The notes under the pieces: generated by a model
Databases searched by the model: none
What the model was told of the DNA's origin: nothing
Seen by the model: only the letters and a program-made list of their open reading frames with translations
Shown: positions 11,759 to 23,012 of the stretch, piece after piece
Numbering within the stretch: position 1 is the stretch's first letter
How the letters are laid out: the number at the start of each line of letters is the position of its first letter
Made by a program: the position numbers and the translations under genes
NCBI GenBank assembly: GCA_017533485.1
Contig: JAFXIC010000032.1
Location: forward strand, 1 to 42,259
Direction of reading: 5' to 3'
Source of the DNA: Oscillospiraceae bacterium
GTDB lineage: Bacteria > Bacillota > Clostridia > Oscillospirales > Ruminococcaceae
DNA: 42,259 bases

Positions 11759-11787
11759 TTGACAAAGGCGGAAAACTATGCTATAAT
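11759..11787 (+). promoter_or_regulatory. Consensus sigma-A promoter of the TetR regulator
   Basis: TTGACA (11759-11764), 17 bp, TATAAT (11782-11787): a full consensus promoter. The predicted start is near 11794, exactly where a 17-bp palindrome begins, so a bound repressor would block initiation. Confidence 0.9.
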
Positions 11788-11793
11788 CTCTTT

Positions 11794-11810
11794 CAGCACA
11801 TGGTGTGCTG
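11794..11810. promoter_or_regulatory. Operator palindrome O1 at the regulator promoter
   Basis: CAGCACATGGTGTGCTG, perfect 7-bp arms around 3 bp. It overlaps the predicted transcription start of the TetR gene. The same arms recur at 12539, 12607 and, with one changed outer base, at 12635. Confidence 0.85.
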
Positions 11811-11899
11811 AAACCTGTGCCGATACTTACAAGACTCGCACCCCAAAGCCCAAACAGAAAGGAACGCGTCCCCATCACAAAGGACATGAACGACAACAT

Positions 11900-12490
11900 A
11901 TGGATGAAAAAGAACGAAAGCTGATTCGCGACGAACGCTCCGAGGAAATTATCCGTATCACCGAACAGCTCGCGATGCAGGAGGGCGCACATAACGTCAC
12001 CGTCCGTAAAATTATCCGTCAGCTCGGAACAACGAATCGTGTATTTTATAACCGCTTCCGGAACTGCGACGAAGTATTGCAGATCGTCTATGAAAATGCA
12101 GTGCTGAAAATGCGGAGCTGTTTCCAGATCGAATATACCACGCGCGAAAGCTTCTTCGAGGCTGCCACCGAACTGGCAGTACAGGTGCTCATCAGTACCT
12201 ATGATGTCAAGCACAATTTCAGCCAGTATATGTTCGAGCACGATTCCCTCACCGAAAGCAACCGACTCTGGTGGATGCGCGAGGTCACGCATATCCTCGA
12301 ACACGCCAAACAGCTCGGATATATTGAAGAAACCCTCGATTCCGAAGCGCTCAGCCACTCCATCTGGTGCTTCTGCCGCGGATTCAATGCCGACGCAATC
12401 GGCAGAAAGCTCTCGAAAGAAGATGCGGTAAAAATTTTCCGTCTGGGCTTCGGCTGCTTTATGCATGGAGTTCAGAAAACGAAAACCTGA
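11900..12490 (+). CDS. TetR-family regulator, probable repressor of the fab operon
   Basis: 196 residues. The N-terminal helix-turn-helix covers about 15-60, with TVRKIIRQLGTTNRVFYNRF as recognition unit; FYNRF replaces the commoner YYHF. The rest is the helical ligand/dimer domain, not like FapR (DeoR-type) or FabT (MarR-type), the known fatty-acid regulators of Firmicutes. The only in-frame ATG after the promoter is 11900; the RBS is weak (AAAGGAC about 15 bp away), and the apparent TTG start at 11759 is actually the -35 box. Operators at its own promoter and before fabH suggest autoregulation and control of fatty-acid synthesis. Ligand could be an acyl-ACP or acyl-CoA; this is inference. 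Its last codons form the first arm of its terminator. Confidence 0.88.
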   Translation: MDEKERKLIRDERSEEIIRITEQLAMQEGAHNVTVRKIIRQLGTTNRVFYNRFRNCDEVLQIVYENAVLKMRSCFQIEYTTRESFFEAATELAVQVLISTYDVKHNFSQYMFEHDSLTESNRLWWMREVTHILEHAKQLGYIEETLDSEALSHSIWCFCRGFNADAIGRKLSKEDAVKIFRLGFGCFMHGVQKTKT

Positions 12491-12537
12491 TTCCGACCGG
12501 TAACCCCTCGGCCCCATGGTTTTCGTTCTCCTTTTTG
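12478..12537 (+). terminator. Terminator of the TetR gene, starting inside its coding end
   Basis: AACGAAAACC (12478-12487) pairs with GGTTTTCGTT (12518-12527), 10 bp, followed by CTCCTTTTT. The 5' arm includes the last codons of the regulator gene. The 30-base loop is long, so strength is uncertain. Confidence 0.6.
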
Positions 12538-12538
12538 T

Positions 12539-12555
12539 CAGCACACCGTGTGCTG
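12539..12555. promoter_or_regulatory. Operator palindrome O2 upstream of fabH
   Basis: CAGCACACCGTGTGCTG, with symmetry extending to TGTCA...TGACA (12536-12558). It overlaps the candidate -35 box of the fabH promoter. Confidence 0.85.
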
Positions 12556-12581
12556 ACACACCGAAAAATACTTTTCATATT
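12553..12581 (+). promoter_or_regulatory. Candidate promoter of the fab operon
   Basis: CTGACA (12553-12558), 17 bp, CATATT (12576-12581). The boxes are imperfect, but this is the best pair in the gap, and its -35 lies in operator O2, so repression is easy to picture. The predicted start near 12588 would put O3 and O4 in the leader. Confidence 0.45.
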
Positions 12582-12606
12582 TTTCAAATATTTACGCAAA
12601 AAACTT

Positions 12607-12623
12607 CAGCACAGATTGTGCTG
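12607..12623. promoter_or_regulatory. Operator palindrome O3 upstream of fabH
   Basis: CAGCACAGATTGTGCTG, with symmetry extending to TTCAGCACA...TGTGCTGAA (12605-12625). Confidence 0.85.
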
Positions 12624-12634
12624 AAAAAATAAAT

Positions 12635-12651
12635 GAGCACATTGTGTGCTG
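12635..12651. promoter_or_regulatory. Operator palindrome O4 next to the fabH ribosome binding site
   Basis: GAGCACATTGTGTGCTG: six of seven arm positions pair (outer C replaced by G). It ends one base before the AAAGGA that serves as fabH Shine-Dalgarno, 7 bp from the start codon. Centres of O3 and O4 are 28 bp apart. Confidence 0.8.
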
Positions 12652-12664
12652 AAAGGATAACCGG

Positions 12665-13618
12665 ATGAGTATTCAGATTATCGGAACCGGTTCATATATA
12701 CCGGAACGTGTTGTGACAAACGACGAGCTGTCTGCGCTGGTGGAAACGAACGACGAATGGATCCAGCAGCGCGTCGGTATCGCCGAGCGTCATGTATCAG
12801 TCAACGAAACTGCCGCAGATATGGCGATTCAGGCAGCAAACCGTGCGCTCGAAGCTGCGGGATGCAGCGGCGGGGACATCGACCTCATTATCGCTGCAAC
12901 CATGTCCTCGGATACCGCCTGCCCGACGGTTGCAAGTACCGTTCAGGCAGCAATCGGTGCAAGCTGTCCGGCGTTCGATGTCAATTCCTGCTGCAGCGGA
13001 TTCTTATTCGGACTCGATATCGCAATCTCCTATATGCAGCGCGGCGGAATGCAGCGCATTCTCGTCCTCGGTGCAGAACGCATGAGCAAAATCATTGACT
13101 GGAGCGACCGTTCGACCTGTGTCATCTTCGGTGACGGTGCCGGCGCAGCAGTCCTCGCGCCCGGAAAGGAACCTGTCGTATCCCGTATCTATACCAGCGG
13201 TGACCGCGATGTGATTTATGTCCCGACCCACAGCGGCGCATCGCCCTTCTTCAAAAAGGAAAAAGAACCTCCGTTTGTCAACATGAACGGACAGGAAACC
13301 TTTAAATTTGCGGTCAATCGTATGACCGAGGATATGCGCTATGCGGTGGAACAATACGGTGTTTCGCTTGAAGATATCGCATGGTTCGTACCCCATCAGG
13401 CAAATCGCCGTATCATTGATTTCGCATCCAAGCGGCTGGGTGTGCCGAAGGAGAAGTTCTTCGTGAATATTGATACCGTCGGCAATACCTCCGCGGCAAG
13501 CGTTCCGATTGCACTCGACGCGCTCCTGCGGAGCGGTAAGGCAAAACACGGCGACCTGATTGCTATGTCTGCATTTGGCGGTGGACTTTCCAGCGCCGTT
13601 TGTATAATCAAATACTAA
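12665..13618 (+). CDS. fabH: Beta-ketoacyl-ACP synthase III
   Basis: 317 residues. Condenses an acyl-CoA primer with malonyl-ACP to start type II fatty-acid synthesis. The catalytic triad is visible as C110 (SCCSGF), H244 (PHQANRRI) and N274 (GNTSAAS), the same numbers as in well-studied homologues except C110. GDGAGAAVL is the usual glycine-rich stretch. AAAGGA precedes ATG 12665 by 7 bp. First gene of the operon. Primer choice (acetyl versus branched) cannot be decided from sequence alone. Confidence 0.96.
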   Translation: MSIQIIGTGSYIPERVVTNDELSALVETNDEWIQQRVGIAERHVSVNETAADMAIQAANRALEAAGCSGGDIDLIIAATMSSDTACPTVASTVQAAIGASCPAFDVNSCCSGFLFGLDIAISYMQRGGMQRILVLGAERMSKIIDWSDRSTCVIFGDGAGAAVLAPGKEPVVSRIYTSGDRDVIYVPTHSGASPFFKKEKEPPFVNMNGQETFKFAVNRMTEDMRYAVEQYGVSLEDIAWFVPHQANRRIIDFASKRLGVPKEKFFVNIDTVGNTSAASVPIALDALLRSGKAKHGDLIAMSAFGGGLSSAVCIIKY

Positions 13619-13642
13619 TTTTAATTTTTGGAGGATCTTATT

Positions 13643-13867
13643 ATGACAATCGAAAAAGTAATCGAAGCTCTGGCTGACCATCTCGAAATGGACGCATCCG
13701 AAATTACTGCGGAAACTACATTCGCAGATCTGGGTGTGGACTCCCTCGACGCTGTTGAAATCCTGATGGAAATGGAAGATGTATTCGGCGTAGAGATCGT
13801 TGCCGGTGAAGCAGGCACTTCCGTCAAAGAGCTGGCTGCATACATCGACGCAAAGGCAAACGCATGA
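13643..13867 (+). CDS. acpP: Acyl carrier protein
   Basis: 74 residues, acidic, four-helix carrier protein. The phosphopantetheine site is S34 in GVDSLDAVE. GGAGG (13630-13634) is 8 bp before ATG 13643; an in-frame TTG at 13628 would overlap the RBS and is rejected. It overlaps fabK by ATGA, so the two are coupled. It carries acyl intermediates for every enzyme encoded in this operon. Confidence 0.96.
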   Translation: MTIEKVIEALADHLEMDASEITAETTFADLGVDSLDAVEILMEMEDVFGVEIVAGEAGTSVKELAAYIDAKANA

Positions 13868-14808
13868 TTGTATCACCGATTTGCGAGCTGCTCGGAATCC
13901 GCTACCCCGTCTTCCAGGGCGGTATGGCACATATCTCCGACGCAGCGCTGGCAGCGGCAGTTTCCGAAAGCGGCGGACTGGGTATCCTTTCTGCCGCCGC
14001 AGGCGACCCGCAATGGCTGGCAGAACAAATTGACCTGATCCGCGAAAAGACCGATAAACCCTTCGGCGTCAATCTGATGCTGCACGGTGAACGTGTCGCG
14101 GAAATGGCACAGGTCATTGCAGACAAAAAAGTACCGGTTGTCACAACCGGTGCAGGAAATCCCGGTTCGTATGTCCCGATGTGGAAGGAAGCCGGCGTGA
14201 AGGTCATCCCTGTGGTTGCTTCCGTTGCGCTCGCAAAGCTGATGGAACGTGCCGGTGCGGCTGCGATCATCGCAGAAGGCGGTGAATCCGGCGGCCATGT
14301 CGGCGAACTGACAACGATGGCTCTCGTTCCGCAGGTTTGTGACGCGGTTTCAATTCCGGTCATCGCAGCAGGCGGTATCGGTGACGGCCGCGGTATGGCA
14401 GCAGCGATGATGCTGGGCGCCTGCGGCGTTCAGGTCGGTACGCGCTTCCTCCTCGCAACAGAATGCGCGATTCCGCAGATTTATAGGGATAAGCTCATCA
14501 AAGCCAATGATATTTCCACGATCGTCACCGGCAAGCGGCTCGGCCACCCCGTCCGCAGCCTGAAGACAAAATTCTCGCGGGAATATGCAAAGCTCGAATA
14601 TACGTCCATTCCAGATGATGAACTCGAACAGCTCGCTGTCGGTACACTCCGGGCAGCTGTACGGGATGGCGATGAAAAGCGGGGATGCTTCCTCGCCGGT
14701 CAGATTGCAGGTATGCTCTCTGAAGAACAGTCCGCTTCCGATATCATTCTCGATATCGTGAACGGTGCGGAATGTCATTTGAAACGAGGTATCACATGGG
14801 TAAAATAG
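13864..14808 (+). CDS. fabK: Enoyl-ACP reductase II (FMN-dependent)
   Basis: 314 residues, 2-nitropropane dioxygenase-like TIM barrel. It reduces the trans-2-enoyl-ACP double bond with NAD(P)H and FMN. Features are the N-terminal RYPVFQGGMAHISDAALA, the GGESGGHVGE motif, and the FMN phosphate-binding region VIAAGGIGDGRGMAAA with GVQVGTRFL. FabK replaces FabI, so the organism should be less sensitive to triclosan-type FabI inhibitors (family knowledge). Starts in the acpP stop codon (ATGA) and overlaps the start of fabD by 13 bp. Confidence 0.95.
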   Translation: MIVSPICELLGIRYPVFQGGMAHISDAALAAAVSESGGLGILSAAAGDPQWLAEQIDLIREKTDKPFGVNLMLHGERVAEMAQVIADKKVPVVTTGAGNPGSYVPMWKEAGVKVIPVVASVALAKLMERAGAAAIIAEGGESGGHVGELTTMALVPQVCDAVSIPVIAAGGIGDGRGMAAAMMLGACGVQVGTRFLLATECAIPQIYRDKLIKANDISTIVTGKRLGHPVRSLKTKFSREYAKLEYTSIPDDELEQLAVGTLRAAVRDGDEKRGCFLAGQIAGMLSEEQSASDIILDIVNGAECHLKRGITWVK

Positions 14809-15728
14809 CATTTGTATTCTCCGGACAGGGTGCACAATATGTCGGCATGGGACAGTCGCTCTATGAGAATTCTGCCGCCGCGAAAGCACTCTACGATATG
14901 GCGGAGCAGTCCCGTCCGGGTACGATGGAACAGTCCTTTTCCGGTACGCCCGAAGCATTGAAGGAAACCCGCAACACCCAGCCCTGCTTATACTTAGTCG
15001 ATCTTTCCGCCGCCCTTGCACTCGAAGAACAGGGTGTGAAAGCGGATGGTGTCGCAGGCTTTTCGCTCGGTGAAGTAGCCGCGCTCGCTTTCGCAGGCGC
15101 ATATTCCCATCAGGACGGCTTCTCCATCGTGACAAAGCGCGGTCTGCTGATGGATGAAGCCGCAAAAGCTGCCGATACCGCAATGTGTGCGGTGCTGCGC
15201 GCGGATCGTTCGCTGATCGAGCAGACTGCCGCGGAATTTCCGGCGCTTTATGCCGTGAATTTCAACTGTCCCGGTCAGATCGTTGTATCCGGTCTGAAAT
15301 CCAGCATGACAGCATTCACTGCCCGTATGGCAGAACGCGGTGGAAAATGTGTTCCCCTCGCGGTCAGCGCCGCATTCCATTCCCCCTTTATGGCGAATGC
15401 GTCCGAACAGTTCCGTACTGTACTCGATTCGTTCGAGGTGACCGCACCGAAGCTTCCGGTTTATGCAAACCTGACCGCAATGCCCTATGGCGAAGCGGAG
15501 ACCGTTCGCGATACCTTGGCACGCCAGATGCAAAGTCCGGTCCAGTGGCAGTCCGCCATTGAACAGATGCTTGCGGACGGATATACCGATTTCATCGAGG
15601 TCGGTGCCGGAAAAACACTCTGCGGACTGATCCGGAAAATTTCGAAGGACACCCGCGTATATTCCGTTGAAAATGCGGAAACGCTCGCAAAAACTGTCGA
15701 GGAGGTAACTGCCAATGCAGAACGGTAA
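14796..15728 (+). CDS. fabD: Malonyl-CoA:ACP transacylase
   Basis: 310 residues. Loads malonyl groups onto ACP. Motifs are FSGQGAQYVGMG at the N-terminus, the nucleophile S90 in GFSLGE and the partner H195 in AAFHSPFM. The start at ATG 14796 (MGKIAFVFSGQG) has CGAGGT 6 bp upstream and matches family N-termini; a longer form from 14772 is unlikely. Overlaps fabK and fabG at its two ends. Confidence 0.95.
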   Translation: MGKIAFVFSGQGAQYVGMGQSLYENSAAAKALYDMAEQSRPGTMEQSFSGTPEALKETRNTQPCLYLVDLSAALALEEQGVKADGVAGFSLGEVAALAFAGAYSHQDGFSIVTKRGLLMDEAAKAADTAMCAVLRADRSLIEQTAAEFPALYAVNFNCPGQIVVSGLKSSMTAFTARMAERGGKCVPLAVSAAFHSPFMANASEQFRTVLDSFEVTAPKLPVYANLTAMPYGEAETVRDTLARQMQSPVQWQSAIEQMLADGYTDFIEVGAGKTLCGLIRKISKDTRVYSVENAETLAKTVEEVTANAER

Positions 15729-16452
15729 AACAGCAATCGTTACCGGTGCATCCGGCGGAATCGGTGCTGCCATCGTCCGGAAGCTTGCCGCTGACGGCTA
15801 CAATGTCGCGATTTTATATGGCGGAAACCGTGAAAAAGCAGAAGCCGTCCGTCAGGATATCTGTGACAATACCGATGTCCGTGCAGAAATCTATGCCTGT
15901 GACGTCGCGGACGCAGCACAGTGTAAAGCTGTGGTCGCAGAAATTATCGCCGCGTTCGGCAGCATCGAGGTGCTCGTCAATAACGCCGGCATCACAAGAG
16001 ATAATCTGATTCTCACTATGCGTGAGGAAGAATTTGACGCAGTCATCAATACCAACTTAAAAGGCTGCTTCCATATGATTCAAAGCTGCTGCAAGCATTT
16101 TCTCCGAAAGAAATATGGAAAAATTATTAATATCGCATCTGTTTCGGGTCTTCTCGGTACCGCCGGTCAGGCAAACTATGCCGCATCCAAAGCCGGTCTG
16201 ATTGCCATGACCAAAACCGCGGCGCGTGAGCTCGCAGGAAAAAATATCTGCTGCAACGCGGTCGCGCCGGGCTTTATCGAAACGGCAATGACCCAGGACC
16301 TGAAGAATCGGGAACAGTATCTGAACAGCATTCCGCTCAAGCGCGCCGGTCAGCCGGAAGATGTCGCGAATACCGTGGCATTCTTAGCAAGCGACGCATC
16401 GGATTATATCACAGGCACTGTGATTCGCGTGGACGGCGGTCTCGCAATCTAA
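15715..16452 (+). CDS. fabG: 3-oxoacyl-ACP reductase
   Basis: 245 residues, short-chain dehydrogenase. NADPH-dependent reduction of beta-ketoacyl-ACP. Rossmann motif TGASGGIG (10-17), NNAG (89-92), and the catalytic Ser142, Tyr155 and Lys159 (YAASK). GGAGGT lies upstream of ATG 15715, within the end of fabD (14-bp overlap). Confidence 0.95.
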   Translation: MQNGKTAIVTGASGGIGAAIVRKLAADGYNVAILYGGNREKAEAVRQDICDNTDVRAEIYACDVADAAQCKAVVAEIIAAFGSIEVLVNNAGITRDNLILTMREEEFDAVINTNLKGCFHMIQSCCKHFLRKKYGKIINIASVSGLLGTAGQANYAASKAGLIAMTKTAARELAGKNICCNAVAPGFIETAMTQDLKNREQYLNSIPLKRAGQPEDVANTVAFLASDASDYITGTVIRVDGGLAI

Positions 16453-16471
16453 ACGCAAATAAGGGAGTAGT

Positions 16472-17707
16472 ATGCAGATGAGAAGAGTAGTTGTAACAGG
16501 ACTCGGTGCGGTAACCCCCATCGGCTGTGATATGACGGAATATTGGAATGCGCTTTGCAGCGGAACCTGCGGCATTGCGCCGATTACACGCTTTGATACC
16601 ACGGATTTCCGCGCAAAGCTTGCGGCTGAGGTCAAGAATTTCGACCCGCTGCTCTATATGGATAAGGCGGATGTCCGACGCAATGACCGCTTCGTTCAGT
16701 TCGCCATCGCGGCGGCTGCACAGGCAATGACGGACGCTGCGCCGGCAACACCCTTTGCATCCGAACGCATGGGCGTTATCTTCGGTTCGGGTATCGGCGG
16801 ATTCGAAACATTTCTGGATGAACATTCGAAGTTTTTACAGCGCGGCCCGTCGCGTGTATCTCCGCTGTTTATCACCAAGATGATTTCCAATATGGCTGCG
16901 GGCAATATCGCGATCCGCTTCGGTGCAAAAGGCTCCTGTCTCTCGCTGACAACAGCCTGTGCGACCGGTACCAACTGTATCGGTGAGGCTTATCGCATGA
17001 TTCGGGACGGCTATCTCGATACCATCATTACCGGCGGCGTTGACGCGTCTATTACACCGCTTGCGGTTGCCGGCTTTACCAACTGCATGGCACTCTCCGA
17101 AAGCACCGATCCGAATGCCGCTTCAATCCCCTTTGATCGCCGCCGCGGCGGTTTCATCATGGGCGAGGGCGCGGGTGCGCTCATCTTAGAGGAGTATGAA
17201 CAGGCTGTCGCAAGAGGCGCGAAGATTTATGCTGAGGTCTGCGGCTATGGCACCACCTGTGACGCATACCATGTCACTGCCATCGAAGAATCTGCCGTCA
17301 ATCCCGCAAGAGCAATTGCGGACTGTCTCGGCGAAGAAGGAAAGGCTGTGCCGGCTGACCGGATCTATGTGAATGCACACGGTACCGGTACCCCCCTCAA
17401 TGACAAAACCGAAACACAGGCACTCAAGAATGTATTCGGCGACGCCGCTTATCAGCTCCATATCAGCTCCACAAAGTCTATGACCGGACATCTCCTCGGT
17501 GCCGCAGGCGCAATCGAAGCCATTGCTGCCGTCCTCGCACTCAAGGAGAATATCGTTCCCCCGACCATCAATTATCAGGAACCCGATCCGGACTGCGACC
17601 TGAACTATACGCCCAATACCGCACAGAAAACACCGCTGGATCTTGCGATCTCCACTTCGCTGGGCTTCGGCGGCCATAACGCCTGTGTCGGATTCCGTAA
17701 GATCTGA
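16472..17707 (+). CDS. fabF: Beta-ketoacyl-ACP synthase II
   Basis: 411 residues. Elongating condensing enzyme. Catalytic C163 (TTACATGTN), H303 (NAHGTGTPLND) and H340 (KSMTGHLLGAAG) with K335. Two in-frame ATGs at 16472 and 16478 compete: GGGAG is 4 bp from the first and 10 bp from the second, so the true start may be MRRVVVTG. In many clostridial operons accB follows fabF; here fabZ follows directly with a 10-bp gap. Confidence 0.95.
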   Translation: MQMRRVVVTGLGAVTPIGCDMTEYWNALCSGTCGIAPITRFDTTDFRAKLAAEVKNFDPLLYMDKADVRRNDRFVQFAIAAAAQAMTDAAPATPFASERMGVIFGSGIGGFETFLDEHSKFLQRGPSRVSPLFITKMISNMAAGNIAIRFGAKGSCLSLTTACATGTNCIGEAYRMIRDGYLDTIITGGVDASITPLAVAGFTNCMALSESTDPNAASIPFDRRRGGFIMGEGAGALILEEYEQAVARGAKIYAEVCGYGTTCDAYHVTAIEESAVNPARAIADCLGEEGKAVPADRIYVNAHGTGTPLNDKTETQALKNVFGDAAYQLHISSTKSMTGHLLGAAGAIEAIAAVLALKENIVPPTINYQEPDPDCDLNYTPNTAQKTPLDLAISTSLGFGGHNACVGFRKI

Positions 17708-17717
17708 GGCACACGCT

Positions 17718-18143
17718 ATGAACAGAGAAGAACTGATGAATATCCTCCCCCACCGCAGCAGTATGCTGCTGCTGGATGAGGCTGAGGTCATTGACGGCGT
17801 ATCCTATGCGAAACGCAAAATTGTCGGAGATGAATGGTTTTTAGACGGCCACTTCCCCGATCATCCGGTTGTACCGGGTGTTGTACTCTGCGAAATGCTC
17901 GCACAGTCGGTTTGTGTATGTCTCGACGGCACCGCTGCGCCTGATATGCATACACTGCTGACGGGGCTCGAAAAAGTTCGCTTCCGTCATCCCGTTGTAC
18001 CGGGTGATGTATTTGAAATGAAAAGTGAGATTGTCCGTGCAAAAGCCCCGTTCTATTTCGCGAAGGGCGAGGGCTTTGTCAACGGAAAACGCTGTGTATC
18101 AGCCGAATTCTCCTTTGCGCTGATGCAAAAGGAAACGGAGTAA
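17718..18143 (+). CDS. fabZ: 3-hydroxyacyl-ACP dehydratase
   Basis: 141 residues, single hot-dog domain. Dehydrates 3-hydroxyacyl-ACP. The active-site pair is visible as H45 (DGHFPDHPVVPG) and E59 (LCEMLAQ). It starts at ATG 17718 with PHRSSMLLLD near the N-terminus; the upstream in-frame codons belong to the end of fabF in another frame. Six bases separate it from accD. No FabA-like isomerase or FabM is seen here, so unsaturated fatty-acid formation is not explained by this operon. Confidence 0.94.
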   Translation: MNREELMNILPHRSSMLLLDEAEVIDGVSYAKRKIVGDEWFLDGHFPDHPVVPGVVLCEMLAQSVCVCLDGTAAPDMHTLLTGLEKVRFRHPVVPGDVFEMKSEIVRAKAPFYFAKGEGFVNGKRCVSAEFSFALMQKETE

Positions 18144-18149
18144 GCATAT

Positions 18150-19013
18150 ATGAATCTGAAAGAAAGCCTGAGCAGTCTGCTCCCGAACTCCAATGCTGCC
18201 GCAGAACCCGAAACCCGTACCTGTAAACACTGCAATACCGAAACAGACTACGATACGCTGCGTGCAAATGATATGATCTGTCCGTCCTGCGGAATGTATT
18301 TCCGTATGCGTGCAGGTGAACGACTGGACTCTGTGCTCGATAAGGGCAGCTTTTCCGAAATTGATAAGAACATGAAAAGCACCGACCCCATCGCTTTCCC
18401 CAATTATGCCCAGAAGCTTGAATGTGCAAAGAAAAACACAAACCTCAAGGAAGCTGTTGTTTGCGGAACGGGAAAAATCGACGGCATCCGCTGTGCAATC
18501 TTTGTCATGGATTCTGCCTTTATGATGGGAAGCATGGGTACGGTTGTCGGCGAGAAAATCACCCGACTCTTTGAAAAAGCACTCGAAATGCAGCTTCCTG
18601 TTGTCGGATTTATCACCTCCGGCGGTGCCAGAATGCAGGAGGGTATCCTCTCCCTGATGCAGATGGCAAAGGTCAGCGGCGCTGTCAAACGCCACAGTGA
18701 AGCCGGCAACTTCTATCTTCCTGTTCTCACCGATCCCACCACCGGCGGTATTACTGCAAGCTTTGCGATGCAGGGCGATGTCATTCTCGCGGAACCCAAA
18801 GCACTCATCGGCTTTGCCGGTCAGCGCGTCATCGAACAAACCACCGGCGAAAAGCTTCCTGCCGGCTTCCAGCGTGCCGAATTCCTGCTGGAGCATGGCT
18901 TTGTGGACATGATCGAGGAACGTCCGCGCCTGAAATATACACTTGCGAGACTGCTCCGCCTCCATCGGAAGCATGATACGCTGATGCGGCAGGAAAGGAG
19001 AAAAACCGTATGA
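18150..19013 (+). CDS. accD: Acetyl-CoA carboxylase, carboxyltransferase beta subunit
   Basis: 287 residues. With AccA transfers CO2 from carboxybiotin to acetyl-CoA, giving malonyl-CoA. The N-terminal zinc ribbon has C25, C28, C44 and C47; the crotonase-like domain includes [10 protein letters not shown] and [12 protein letters not shown]. It overlaps accA by ATGA. The partner subunits AccB (biotin carrier) and AccC (biotin carboxylase) are not encoded in this operon or elsewhere in the window. Confidence 0.95.
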
Positions 19014-19789
19014 GTAAAACAGCATATGAACGCGTACAGGCGGCACGAAACGGAAAGCGTCCGACCGGCGGATATTATATCGACCGTATGATTGACGGAT
19101 TTATCGAGCTCCACGGCGACAGACGCTATCGCGATGATGCCGCAATCATCAGCGGCGTCGGCTGGATCGGAAATTTCCCCGTTACTGTCATCGCCATGGA
19201 ACGCGGAAATACGATCGAAGACCGTATGCGCCGCAATTTCGGCTGTCCTTCTCCCGAAGGCTATCGGAAAGCACTCCGTCTGATGAAGCTCTCGGAGAAA
19301 TTCAACCGTCCGATCCTCTGTTTCATCGGAAGCTCCGGTGCTTACTGCGGGATGGAAGCGGAACAGCGCGGTCAGGGAGAAGCCATTGCAGAAAATCTCT
19401 ATGAGATGATGGGCTTAAAGGTGCCGATTATTTCTGTTGTCATCGGAGAAGGCGGAAGCGGCGGCGCACTTGCACTCGGCGTCTGCGATACTGCGATTAT
19501 GCTTGAAAATGCAGTATATTCCGTGATTTCGCCCGAAGGCTGCGCAAGTATTCTCTGGAAAGATGCATCCAAAGCCGCGGAAGCTGCGGAAGCACTCAAG
19601 CTCACTTCCTATGACCTGCTGAATTTCGAGGTTGTCGAGCACATTGTCAAGGAACAAAACCGTACAGAAAAGGAAATCTGTGATGATTTAAAGAAGCTTC
19701 TGATTTCGGAGCTGGAACAGAAAGCTGCACTCCCTACCGAGGCACTTCTCTCCGGCCGCTATCAGAAATTCCGTAAAATCGGTGCATAA
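19010..19789 (+). CDS. accA: Acetyl-CoA carboxylase, carboxyltransferase alpha subunit
   Basis: 259 residues, near the short clostridial form (E. coli AccA is about 319). Conserved [32 protein letters not shown], and the oxyanion region [12 protein letters not shown] followed by [17 protein letters not shown]. It starts inside the accD stop (ATGA), which favours equal synthesis of the two subunits. Last gene of the fab operon; an array of diverged repeats with strong hairpins follows and may end transcription. Confidence 0.95.
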
Positions 19790-19810
19790 GTTTATATTTT
19801 TCACATAGTC

Positions 19811-20330
19811 AAGGGGGGGAAGTGAGAGCGGTGCTCGAACACTCCCCCCTTTCTTTTTTATATTCGTGAAAATAACCAAGGGGGACACCCATAGGGGAGG
19901 AAAGAGCGCTCCCGCGCATTCTCTCACACCCCAAGGCAATAAATTGCCCTTGGTTTGCCCCTTTCGTTTTATCCAAGCACGATAAATCATTCACAGAAGA
20001 AAACCAAAAGAATACAGAAAAACCGTGAGAACATCCCTCAAATCCTCCCCCTGCCCTTGGTTGTCTCCTTTCTTTTTATATTCGAATAAATAACCAAGGG
20101 GGAAAACCATAGGGTCAAGGGGGAGACGTGAGAGCCGCGCTCGAACACTCCCCCTTACCCTTGGTTTGCCCCTTTCGTTTTATCCCGGCACGAAAACAAT
20201 GCTAAGAAGATAAACATATGAATACAGGAAACCGTGAGAACATCCCTCAAACTCTCCCCCTTACCCTTGGTTTGCCCCTTTCGTTTTATCCTGGCACGAA
20301 AACAAATCTAGGAAGATAAACATATGAACA
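19811..20330. repeat. Diverged tandem array, about five units of ~105 bp
   Basis: The gene-free stretch after accA is built from related units whose shared points fall at about 19843, 19947, 20054, 20158 and 20264 (steps of 104, 107, 104 and 106 bp). Two subtypes alternate: one has TTTCTTTTT.TATATTCG then ACCAAGGGGGA (19850s and 20070s), the other has CCCTTGGTTTGCCCCTTTCG and a following TTTTATCC..GCACGA (19947, 20158, 20264). GTGAGA followed by CTCCCCC precedes most units. ACCAAGGG and TCAAGGGGGAG can pair with later CTCCCCCTT and CCCTTGGT, giving long RNA hairpins. Unit length and lack of uniform spacers rule out CRISPR. Confidence 0.75.
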
Positions 20331-20419
20331 CCCCAAAACCACAAAAACCTCCCTCGAACACCATCCCACCCTCTTTTGCGGCATATACCCGAAAGTATGG
20401 GAAAGATCAGCAAAAATGC

Positions 20420-22460: not shown

Positions 22461-23012
22461 ATGATTATTGATGCAAGTCTCGGCAGAAATAACAGCTGTG
22501 GCTGCGGGTGCGATTGCGGCTGCGGCGCCTATCCGACCTGTCCCACTACACGCCCGGACTGCGGTACCGGTGGAAACAACGCACCGGACGCTTTCACCGT
22601 CCAGCTTGCGACTGCGGTCACGGCACTCCCCGACGGTGCGGCACTCCCCCTCAGCGGGACTGTCCGGATCAGCGGAAACGGATTGTCGTATGACAGCGCA
22701 AATTGTGCGGTCGTCATCAACGAAGCCGGCGTCTACCATTTTTCATGGGATGTTCTGACACAGTCCACGTCCGAAGAACTGCCGATCGTGATTGCACTCC
22801 AGTCGCTCGATGACGCAACCGTTCTGGCATATTCCGGCACAGCCGCAGCGGATGCCGCAGGCAGCACCCTCGTCAGCGGTGAAACAACTGCGACCCTTGC
22901 GGCAGGTACCGCATGGGTGCTCGTCAACCGCTCCGGTGCCGCAATCAATCTGCCTGCTGCCGGTACGCCTCCGACCGCCTTTACCGCACAGCTTACCGTC
23001 ACAGAAGTCTGA
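22461..23012 (+). CDS. Cys-rich N-terminus plus BclA/TNF-like domain; possible spore-surface protein
   Basis: 183 residues. No signal peptide. Residues 10-36 hold seven Cys, most in alternating positions (C13, C15, C17, C19, C21, C27, C34), then a Gly/Asn spacer. Residues 43-183 look like the TNF/C1q-like trimer domain at the C-terminus of Bacillus BclA-type collagen-like proteins: an opening PDAFTVQL, the motif VVINEAGVYHFSWDV, then short beta strands ending AFTAQLTVTEV. Such domains sit on the exosporium of spores; the collagen Gly-X-Y repeat is lacking here. GAGTGAG precedes ATG 22461. With gpr and CotH in the window a spore-coat role is possible; fold and location are inferred. Confidence 0.65.
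   Translation: MIIDASLGRNNSCGCGCDCGCGAYPTCPTTRPDCGTGGNNAPDAFTVQLATAVTALPDGAALPLSGTVRISGNGLSYDSANCAVVINEAGVYHFSWDVLTQSTSEELPIVIALQSLDDATVLAYSGTAAADAAGSTLVSGETTATLAAGTAWVLVNRSGAAINLPAAGTPPTAFTAQLTVTEV

Follow-up and report, generated by a model that had tools for sequence, protein, structure and literature searches.

A TetR-family regulator with a conserved palindromic operator at a Clostridia fatty acid synthesis operon: a probable repressor of membrane acyl supply

Our analyses centered on a 42,259-nucleotide stretch of DNA from an Oscillospiraceae bacterium (assembly GCA_017533485.1, contig JAFXIC010000032.1; hereafter, the window), in which the gene for a TetR-family regulator lies upstream of a type II fatty acid synthesis (FASII) operon with the gene order fabH, acpP, fabK, fabD, fabG, fabF, fabZ, accD, accA. 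A first-pass annotation of this DNA had set the start of the feature at 11759; the regulator promoter is located there, but the open reading frame (ORF) proper, which encodes 196 residues on the forward strand (11900 to 12490), starts from the ATG at 11900. The promoter, a forward-strand sigma-A-type TTGACA-17-TATAAT (11759 to 11787), matches the consensus at 12 of 12 positions. The annotation had further described four copies of the palindrome CAGCACA-N3-TGTGCTG, and all four are present. Specifically, exact copies of CAGCACANNNTGTGCTG occupy forward-strand positions 11794 to 11810 (O1), 12539 to 12555 (O2) and 12607 to 12623 (O3), and the fourth copy (O4, 12635 to 12651, same strand) carries one mismatch, at its first base (GAGCACA...). 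As proposed, O1 sits where transcription from the regulator promoter is predicted to start, 7 bp past the last base of that promoter. The other three fall within the gap between the regulator and fabH, which measures 174 bp and not the 175 bp originally reported.

Several features of this gap bear on how the fab operon might be transcribed. A probable intrinsic terminator of the regulator gene (12475 to 12536, forward strand) comprises a strong stem followed by CUCCUUUUUG; the RNA fold of 12472 to 12540 has a predicted energy of −20 kcal/mol (z −3.9), with a hairpin and then U5 just before O2. The presence of this strong hairpin and U5 at the end of the regulator gene favors a separate fab promoter. 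The sole candidate from our scan is a possible CTGACA-17-CATATT on the forward strand at 12553 to 12581, which matches 9 of 12 consensus positions, in a region that gave three promoter-like sites compared to 1.2 expected. O2 overlaps the −35 element of this candidate by 3 bp, so that the overlap claimed in the annotation exists although the promoter call itself is weak. O3 lies 68 bp from O2, beyond the predicted start (about +20). O4 directly adjoins AAAGGA, the Shine-Dalgarno sequence of fabH, as had been noted.

We searched for the palindrome in the window and in the whole genome of its host, a 2.12-Mb assembly of 76 contigs that is 88.3% complete. Allowing up to three mismatches, the window contained seven matches, whereas shuffled sequences averaged 1.7 and never had more than 4. 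The exact 17-mer occurs at three places in the host genome, all of them in the window. With up to one mismatch there are five places, four in the window and the fifth inside a phosphoesterase ORF, and with up to two mismatches there are 30, versus 2 for a reversed-pattern control. Beyond the exact and one-mismatch sites, 25 two-mismatch sites are found in the host genome. Five of these were inspected: the one at 22694 of the window is within an ORF, that at C25:2444 precedes a MarR-ABC transporter pair, and the other three are within ORFs. The C25:2444 sequence, CGGCACAGAGTGTGCCG (genome G000; L128:1945), lies 183 bp before the MarR gene, which is followed by the ABC exporter, and is similar to operator variants of the same-genus arrays described below. 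A chance palindrome was ruled out by the shuffles and by the control loci.

The regulator protein contains an N-terminal TetR-type helix-turn-helix (HTH), as its match to PF00440 (TetR_N; 29 bits versus a gathering cutoff of 24) supports the family assignment of the annotation. TetR_N was its only Pfam match at E 0.001, and no MarR family was matched in Pfam or NCBIfam at that threshold. Within the segment T-N-R-V-F-Y-N-R-F, residues N46 to F53 are invariant in 17 aligned proteins, which matches a fixed operator; this segment should hold the recognition helix. With regard to the all-helical C-terminal ligand domain of TetR proteins, AlphaFold2, run on three sequences, predicted nine helices, but the mean predicted local distance difference test score was 47.7, too low for the model to be relied on. 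The HTH region (profile positions 14 to 85) gave a weak profile match to Bacillus subtilis FadR (3whb, E 9e-4). Neither the single-sequence search of the PDB (E 0.01) nor the profile search (E 0.001) had a chain of Mycobacterium tuberculosis FasR among its matches, although these thresholds leave room for remote homology.

To place the locus in its wider context, we surveyed genomes at increasing taxonomic depth. The regulator turned up in 1 of 100 family genomes (E 1e-10), which was the window's own, in 16 of 295 order genomes (E 1e-15) and in 29 of 391 class genomes (E 1e-20), the window's own again being counted; two surveyed loci were taken from named metagenome-assembled genome records. 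At 61 of the 70 regulator loci with enough sequence, a palindrome with no more than two mismatches was present within 300 bp upstream, compared to 4 of 3500 dinucleotide shuffles. A promoter similar to that of the window was recognized upstream of the regulator at 59 of the 70, the window's included, and where both elements were recognized the operator started −1 to +6 from the end of a near-consensus −10 in 49 of 55 loci. Thus, most homologous loci carry the palindrome where O1 lies. At L031, L032 and L121, a palindrome occupies the spacer between −35 and −10.

As controls, we examined 28 same-family fabH loci, none of which had a regulator match at E 1e-3. Of these, 26 provided about 1.5 kb of upstream sequence (L138 and L156 had no useful upstream sequence); 22 of the 26 came from genomes that were searched whole without a regulator match (the other four being from G420, G424, G428 and G438). 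The palindrome was absent, at two mismatches, upstream of fabH in all 26, as the annotation would predict for fabH promoters lacking the regulator. In contrast, 46 of the 49 loci with both regulator and fabH carry it upstream of the regulator, the exceptions being L026, L175 and L178. These data also bear on whether the palindromes could be hairpins in a leader RNA, acting by attenuation or on mRNA stability, rather than DNA operators. O2, O3 and O4 do fold as RNA hairpins of about 7 to 10 bp, and in relatives a second inverted repeat lies about 10 nt ahead of many of the gap operators. However, the palindrome accompanies the regulator gene and is missing at all 26 control loci, its arms recur in sequence (among sites chosen at no more than two mismatches), and in L031, L032 and L121 the location between −35 and −10 puts it outside the transcript of that promoter. 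We therefore consider an RNA role highly improbable.

Within the genus of the window, the regulator is present in 26 of 30 genomes, the window's included, and in all 13 with a completeness of 90% or more. In each of the 25 other loci, fabH follows the regulator; in one of these (L018, genome G118) fabH was seen in two pieces only (residues 1 to 63 and 140 to 317), perhaps because the gene is broken or the assembly faulty. The gap between tetR and fabH is free of operators in all 25. Instead, 19 contain two or more sites spaced 14 to 17 bp apart, typically directly after the −10 of the regulator promoter, in the form (G)AGCACAnnnTGTGCyrGCACAnnnTGTGCTGA. The exact core AGCACANNNTGTGCT occurs at 42 places in the 30 genomes and the reversed-pattern control at 0. 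Of the four genomes that lack the regulator, G104 and G111 contain a fab operon, but the 12 and 14 kb retrieved from them held no palindrome even with two mismatches allowed; G100 and G119 had no FabH at E 1e-40.

Gap operators are, by contrast, present in 20 of the 49 fabH-linked loci of the full survey, the window's included, indicating that the arrangement of the window is common at the class level, yet unusual in its own genus. Neither the regulator nor its gap operators are confined to the source species. Spacings of 62 to 69 bp between gap operators are recurrent, among others of 28 to 85 bp. L163 and L164 each have four gap operators at a spacing of exactly 34 bp, and after them an extended −10-like TGATATAAT (the latter by eye).

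The gene that follows the regulator was fabH in 49 of 71 loci, an acyl-coenzyme A (CoA) synthetase-like gene in 10, a FadH/OYE-like reductase in 3, DegV in 2, an aldehyde dehydrogenase in 1 and another gene or none in 6. The protein is thus not tied to fab. We next mapped this linkage onto a regulator tree of 43 rows, from which class loci L160 to L187 were left out and in which L032 was entered as "other" despite its acyl-CoA synthetase neighbor. The fab-linked rows require three changes, at least two of which are forced by well-supported branches, and fab-linked L097 is placed in a mixed clade apart from that of the window, although its exact place is unsure because of its long branch. On this sequence-based tree, fab linkage is thus estimated to have arisen at least twice.

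The palindrome is not limited to the surroundings of the regulator gene. In 15 other genomes of the order, its exact core lies away from the regulator at 13 sites in eight clusters, one of which (G245) is 4.5 kb downstream of the regulator on the same contig. All eight clusters are upstream of genes: an acyl-CoA synthetase in three (L125, L126 and L127), a DegV-type gene in three (L122; L123, where an acyl-CoA synthetase follows; and L121, a short ORF with a DegV-like start by eye), a glycolipid operon in one (L124), and an iron alcohol dehydrogenase with an aldehyde dehydrogenase in one (L120). FakB-type members of the DegV family serve as fatty acid carriers for the fatty-acid kinase. Two of the synthetases were scanned in NCBIfam and matched NF004837 at 199 and 215 bits, far under its cutoff of 476, so only the enzyme class is claimed for them. 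In the genomes of L031 and L032, all five further one-mismatch sites are within ORFs.

TetR proteins often control drug or redox genes, and the regulator could accordingly be a repressor of the usual kind that controls itself and a nearby xenobiotic or redox response, with its adjacency to fab arising by chance and the gap operators a side effect. Consistent with such a role, its neighbors include an aldehyde dehydrogenase (L101) and OYE-type flavin reductases (L093, L095 and L099), and the L120 sites precede alcohol and aldehyde dehydrogenases. The predominance of fabH as the next gene, the gap operators in 20 of 49 fabH-linked loci, the sites at acyl-CoA synthetase and DegV genes, and the independent fab linkage in the tree all argue against it, and we regard this explanation as improbable.

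To relate regulator position to FASII status, we searched for FabH and FabF. Among the 15 genomes in which the regulator is not beside fabH, FabH was found in none (E 1e-30) and FabF only in G163, while both proteins were present in all three fabH-linked genomes tested and the FabF search matched in 10 of 14 control genomes. The association between FASII status and regulator position gave a Fisher p of 0.005, with shared ancestry ignored, and completeness reaches 90% or more in 10 of the 14 FabF-negative genomes. The simplest reading of these sequence data is that the FabF-negative relatives import fatty acids, a supply that the regulator would control.

Taken together, the data make it very probable that the protein is a TetR-type repressor that acts on CAGCACA-N3-TGTGCTG to control membrane acyl supply, either synthesis or scavenging depending on the lineage. 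In the proposed mechanism, a dimer of the 11900 to 12490 protein would bind each palindrome. Binding at O1 would block the regulator's own promoter, resulting in autoregulation, and binding at O2, O3 and O4 would block initiation and early elongation of the fabH to accA operon, the multiple downstream sites adding roadblock or cooperative binding. Across the class, the clade keeps its operator and would control de novo synthesis in lineages with a FASII operon and, where FASII is missing, the activation or uptake of outside fatty acids through an acyl-CoA synthetase or a DegV/FakB-like protein. What the sequences show is the sites, their conservation, their location at promoters, their occurrence together with the regulator and the genes around them; binding, repression, dimer stoichiometry and the ligand with its sign are inferred.

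By analogy with known systems, the likeliest signal is a long-chain acyl thioester, acyl-CoA or acyl-acyl carrier protein, most simply serving as a co-repressor that reports sufficient supply. A co-repressor would fit both settings because synthesis and scavenging are both supply functions. The same operators could also be read with the opposite sign, long-chain acyl-CoA being an inducer that releases the repressor, as in B. subtilis FadR, such that the protein would mainly sense fatty acids brought in from outside. The synthetase-linked forms are better explained by an inducer than by a co-repressor; the acyl-CoA-synthetase-like gene is the second commonest neighbor (10 of 71), and the weak HTH-profile match is to FadR. 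For the fab operons, however, synthesis would then turn on when acyl chains are plentiful, and we judge the inducer form unlikely, though less so than a redox role.

A number of observations weigh against an acyl-supply repressor. The upstream palindrome is missing at 9 of 70 loci (L026, L089, L098, L100, L102, L174, L175, L177 and L178), two of which (L175 and L098) carry it in the gap, and the regulator was not seen in 4 of the 30 same-genus genomes. Although the palindrome accompanies fab or lipid genes beside orthologs at the family, order and class levels, as the annotation had anticipated, in the genus 15 of the 42 exact cores are away from the regulator, 10 of these 15 overlap a called ORF, and no lipid-synthesis gene was identified by Pfam among nine genes around four of the remaining sites (L061, L062, L064 and L069). 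Similarly, none of the five inspected two-mismatch sites, of 25 in the host genome, placed an operator at another lipid gene. At the window, the fab promoter call is weak (9 of 12). Among the away clusters, the L122 site overlaps the end of the preceding called ORF and the L124 site is between divergent genes, one of them CAAX-protease-like. FASII absence is a search result on draft genomes, and two of these (G272 and G234) share an identical regulator locus. Finally, the ligand and its sign rest on analogy. Regarding G272 and G234, their loci (L091 and L092) have identical regulator protein and upstream DNA, yet the genomes are assigned to two different families; a recent transfer or a misplaced contig would account for this.

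An inverted repeat often ends about 10 nt before operators that are near start codons, with an A-rich spacer, as in the gaps of L171, L180, L172, L173, L166 and L097 and before the DegV-type genes of L121 and L123. Stems of at least 6 bp ending 5 to 16 nt before the operator were found at 9 of 20 second-or-later gap sites (0.61 expected), at 12 of 18 first gap sites (2.81 expected; some may be regulator-gene terminators) and at 4 of the 8 sites not linked to the regulator (0.52 expected). Stem sequences vary from site to site, and in the window only one of the three gap operators, O3, has one, a weak 6-bp stem. An extension of the acyl-supply reading, in which a fixed operator serves a moving regulon, is that in many members the operator before the start codon, the hairpin and the A-rich spacer form a repeated roadblock that acts on elongating RNA polymerase and not on initiation. 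We offer this as a tentative possibility, with the balance tilting away from it.

FASII control in Firmicutes has been described mainly through FapR and FabT. The FabT gene lies beside a fabH-acpP-fabK-type operon and its product provides end-product feedback, while FapR is of another DNA-binding family, with a hotdog effector domain and its own HTH. B. subtilis FadR controls degradation and is linked to an acyl-CoA synthetase gene, and its operator differs from the palindrome described here. FabT of streptococci and enterococci resembles the proposed regulator as a repressor of FASII genes (PMC12647141, PMC9083066), but has a MarR-type fold, whereas the window protein has TetR_N and no MarR match. 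FapR of Bacillus, Staphylococcus and Clostridioides difficile is likewise an autoregulated FASII repressor, whose 17-bp inverted repeats lie within promoters or immediately downstream of them (PMC5052256); it differs in that only TetR_N was found in the window regulator, for which a malonyl-CoA effector is not implied. The suggestion that the locus represents a solution unlike FapR or FabT, with a different DNA-binding fold, is thus supported. Among TetR proteins, M. tuberculosis FasR controls lipid synthesis and senses long acyl-CoA (PMC7382501), but is an activator and was absent from the PDB matches. B. subtilis FadR binds long-chain acyl-CoA (3WHC, PMC12647141), and its HTH-profile match to the window protein covers partial length only. 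A pneumococcal TetR-family fatty-acid regulator, FasR (SPV_0647), was reported in 2025; it acts on fabM and membrane saturation, its gene is with comEB, the FASII operon there is run by FabT, and its authors found no binding motif (PMC12647141). Known TetR lipid regulators sense acyl-CoA (PMC7382501, PMC12647141). A 2016 review listed six regulators of fatty acid synthesis, FadR, DesR, FabR, DesT, FapR and FabT (PMC5052256), and open-license papers, judged by titles and the beginnings of abstracts, included no recognizable case of a TetR protein governing an entire Firmicute fab operon. TetR-type lipid regulators are therefore already known; the clade, its operator and its switching regulon look new.

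If correct, this reading would add a third type of FASII control in many lineages represented mostly by draft genomes, with a readable operator that allows the regulon to be traced genome by genome. Should the link to FASII loss hold, a sensor and its DNA site would have been kept while the pathway was exchanged, making the order of loss and rewiring testable, and FabF-negative species would be predicted to be fatty-acid auxotrophs, which bears on their cultivation.

Other solutions may operate in the same family. Among the nearest upstream ORFs of nine control fabH loci that were scanned, three are MarR (L134, L140 and L141) and two are sigma-70-type (extracytoplasmic function [ECF]-like). 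The three MarR ORFs suggest that part of the family may use FabT-like control of fab. In L078, L133 and L135, fab operons without an adjoining TetR regulator, a divergent ECF-like sigma-70-type gene lies beside fabH.

The fab operon of the window (12665 to 19789) is encoded entirely on the forward strand. Matches above cutoff identify fabH (12665 to 13618; TIGR00747 and NF006829), fabD (14772 to 15728; TIGR00128), fabG (15715 to 16452; TIGR01830), fabF (16472 to 17707; TIGR03150), accD (18150 to 19013; TIGR00515) and accA (19010 to 19789; TIGR00513). The acpP gene (13643 to 13867) encodes an acyl carrier protein with a DSLDAVE segment in its translation, and fabK (13864 to 14808) scored 429.7 bits with TIGR03151, just below the cutoff of 453.1. 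For fabZ (17720 to 18143), PF07977 was over its cutoff, and NF000582 and TIGR01750 were best but below theirs; the start at 17720 is probable, by eye, the listed ORF running from 17643. Genes accB and accC often accompany accD and accA in such operons. Here, accD and accA are present and accB and accC are not in the operon, no search for them elsewhere having been made. Downstream of accA, at 19800 to 20350, several near-copies of a stretch containing "ccaaggg" and "ccctttcgttttat" are visible by eye.

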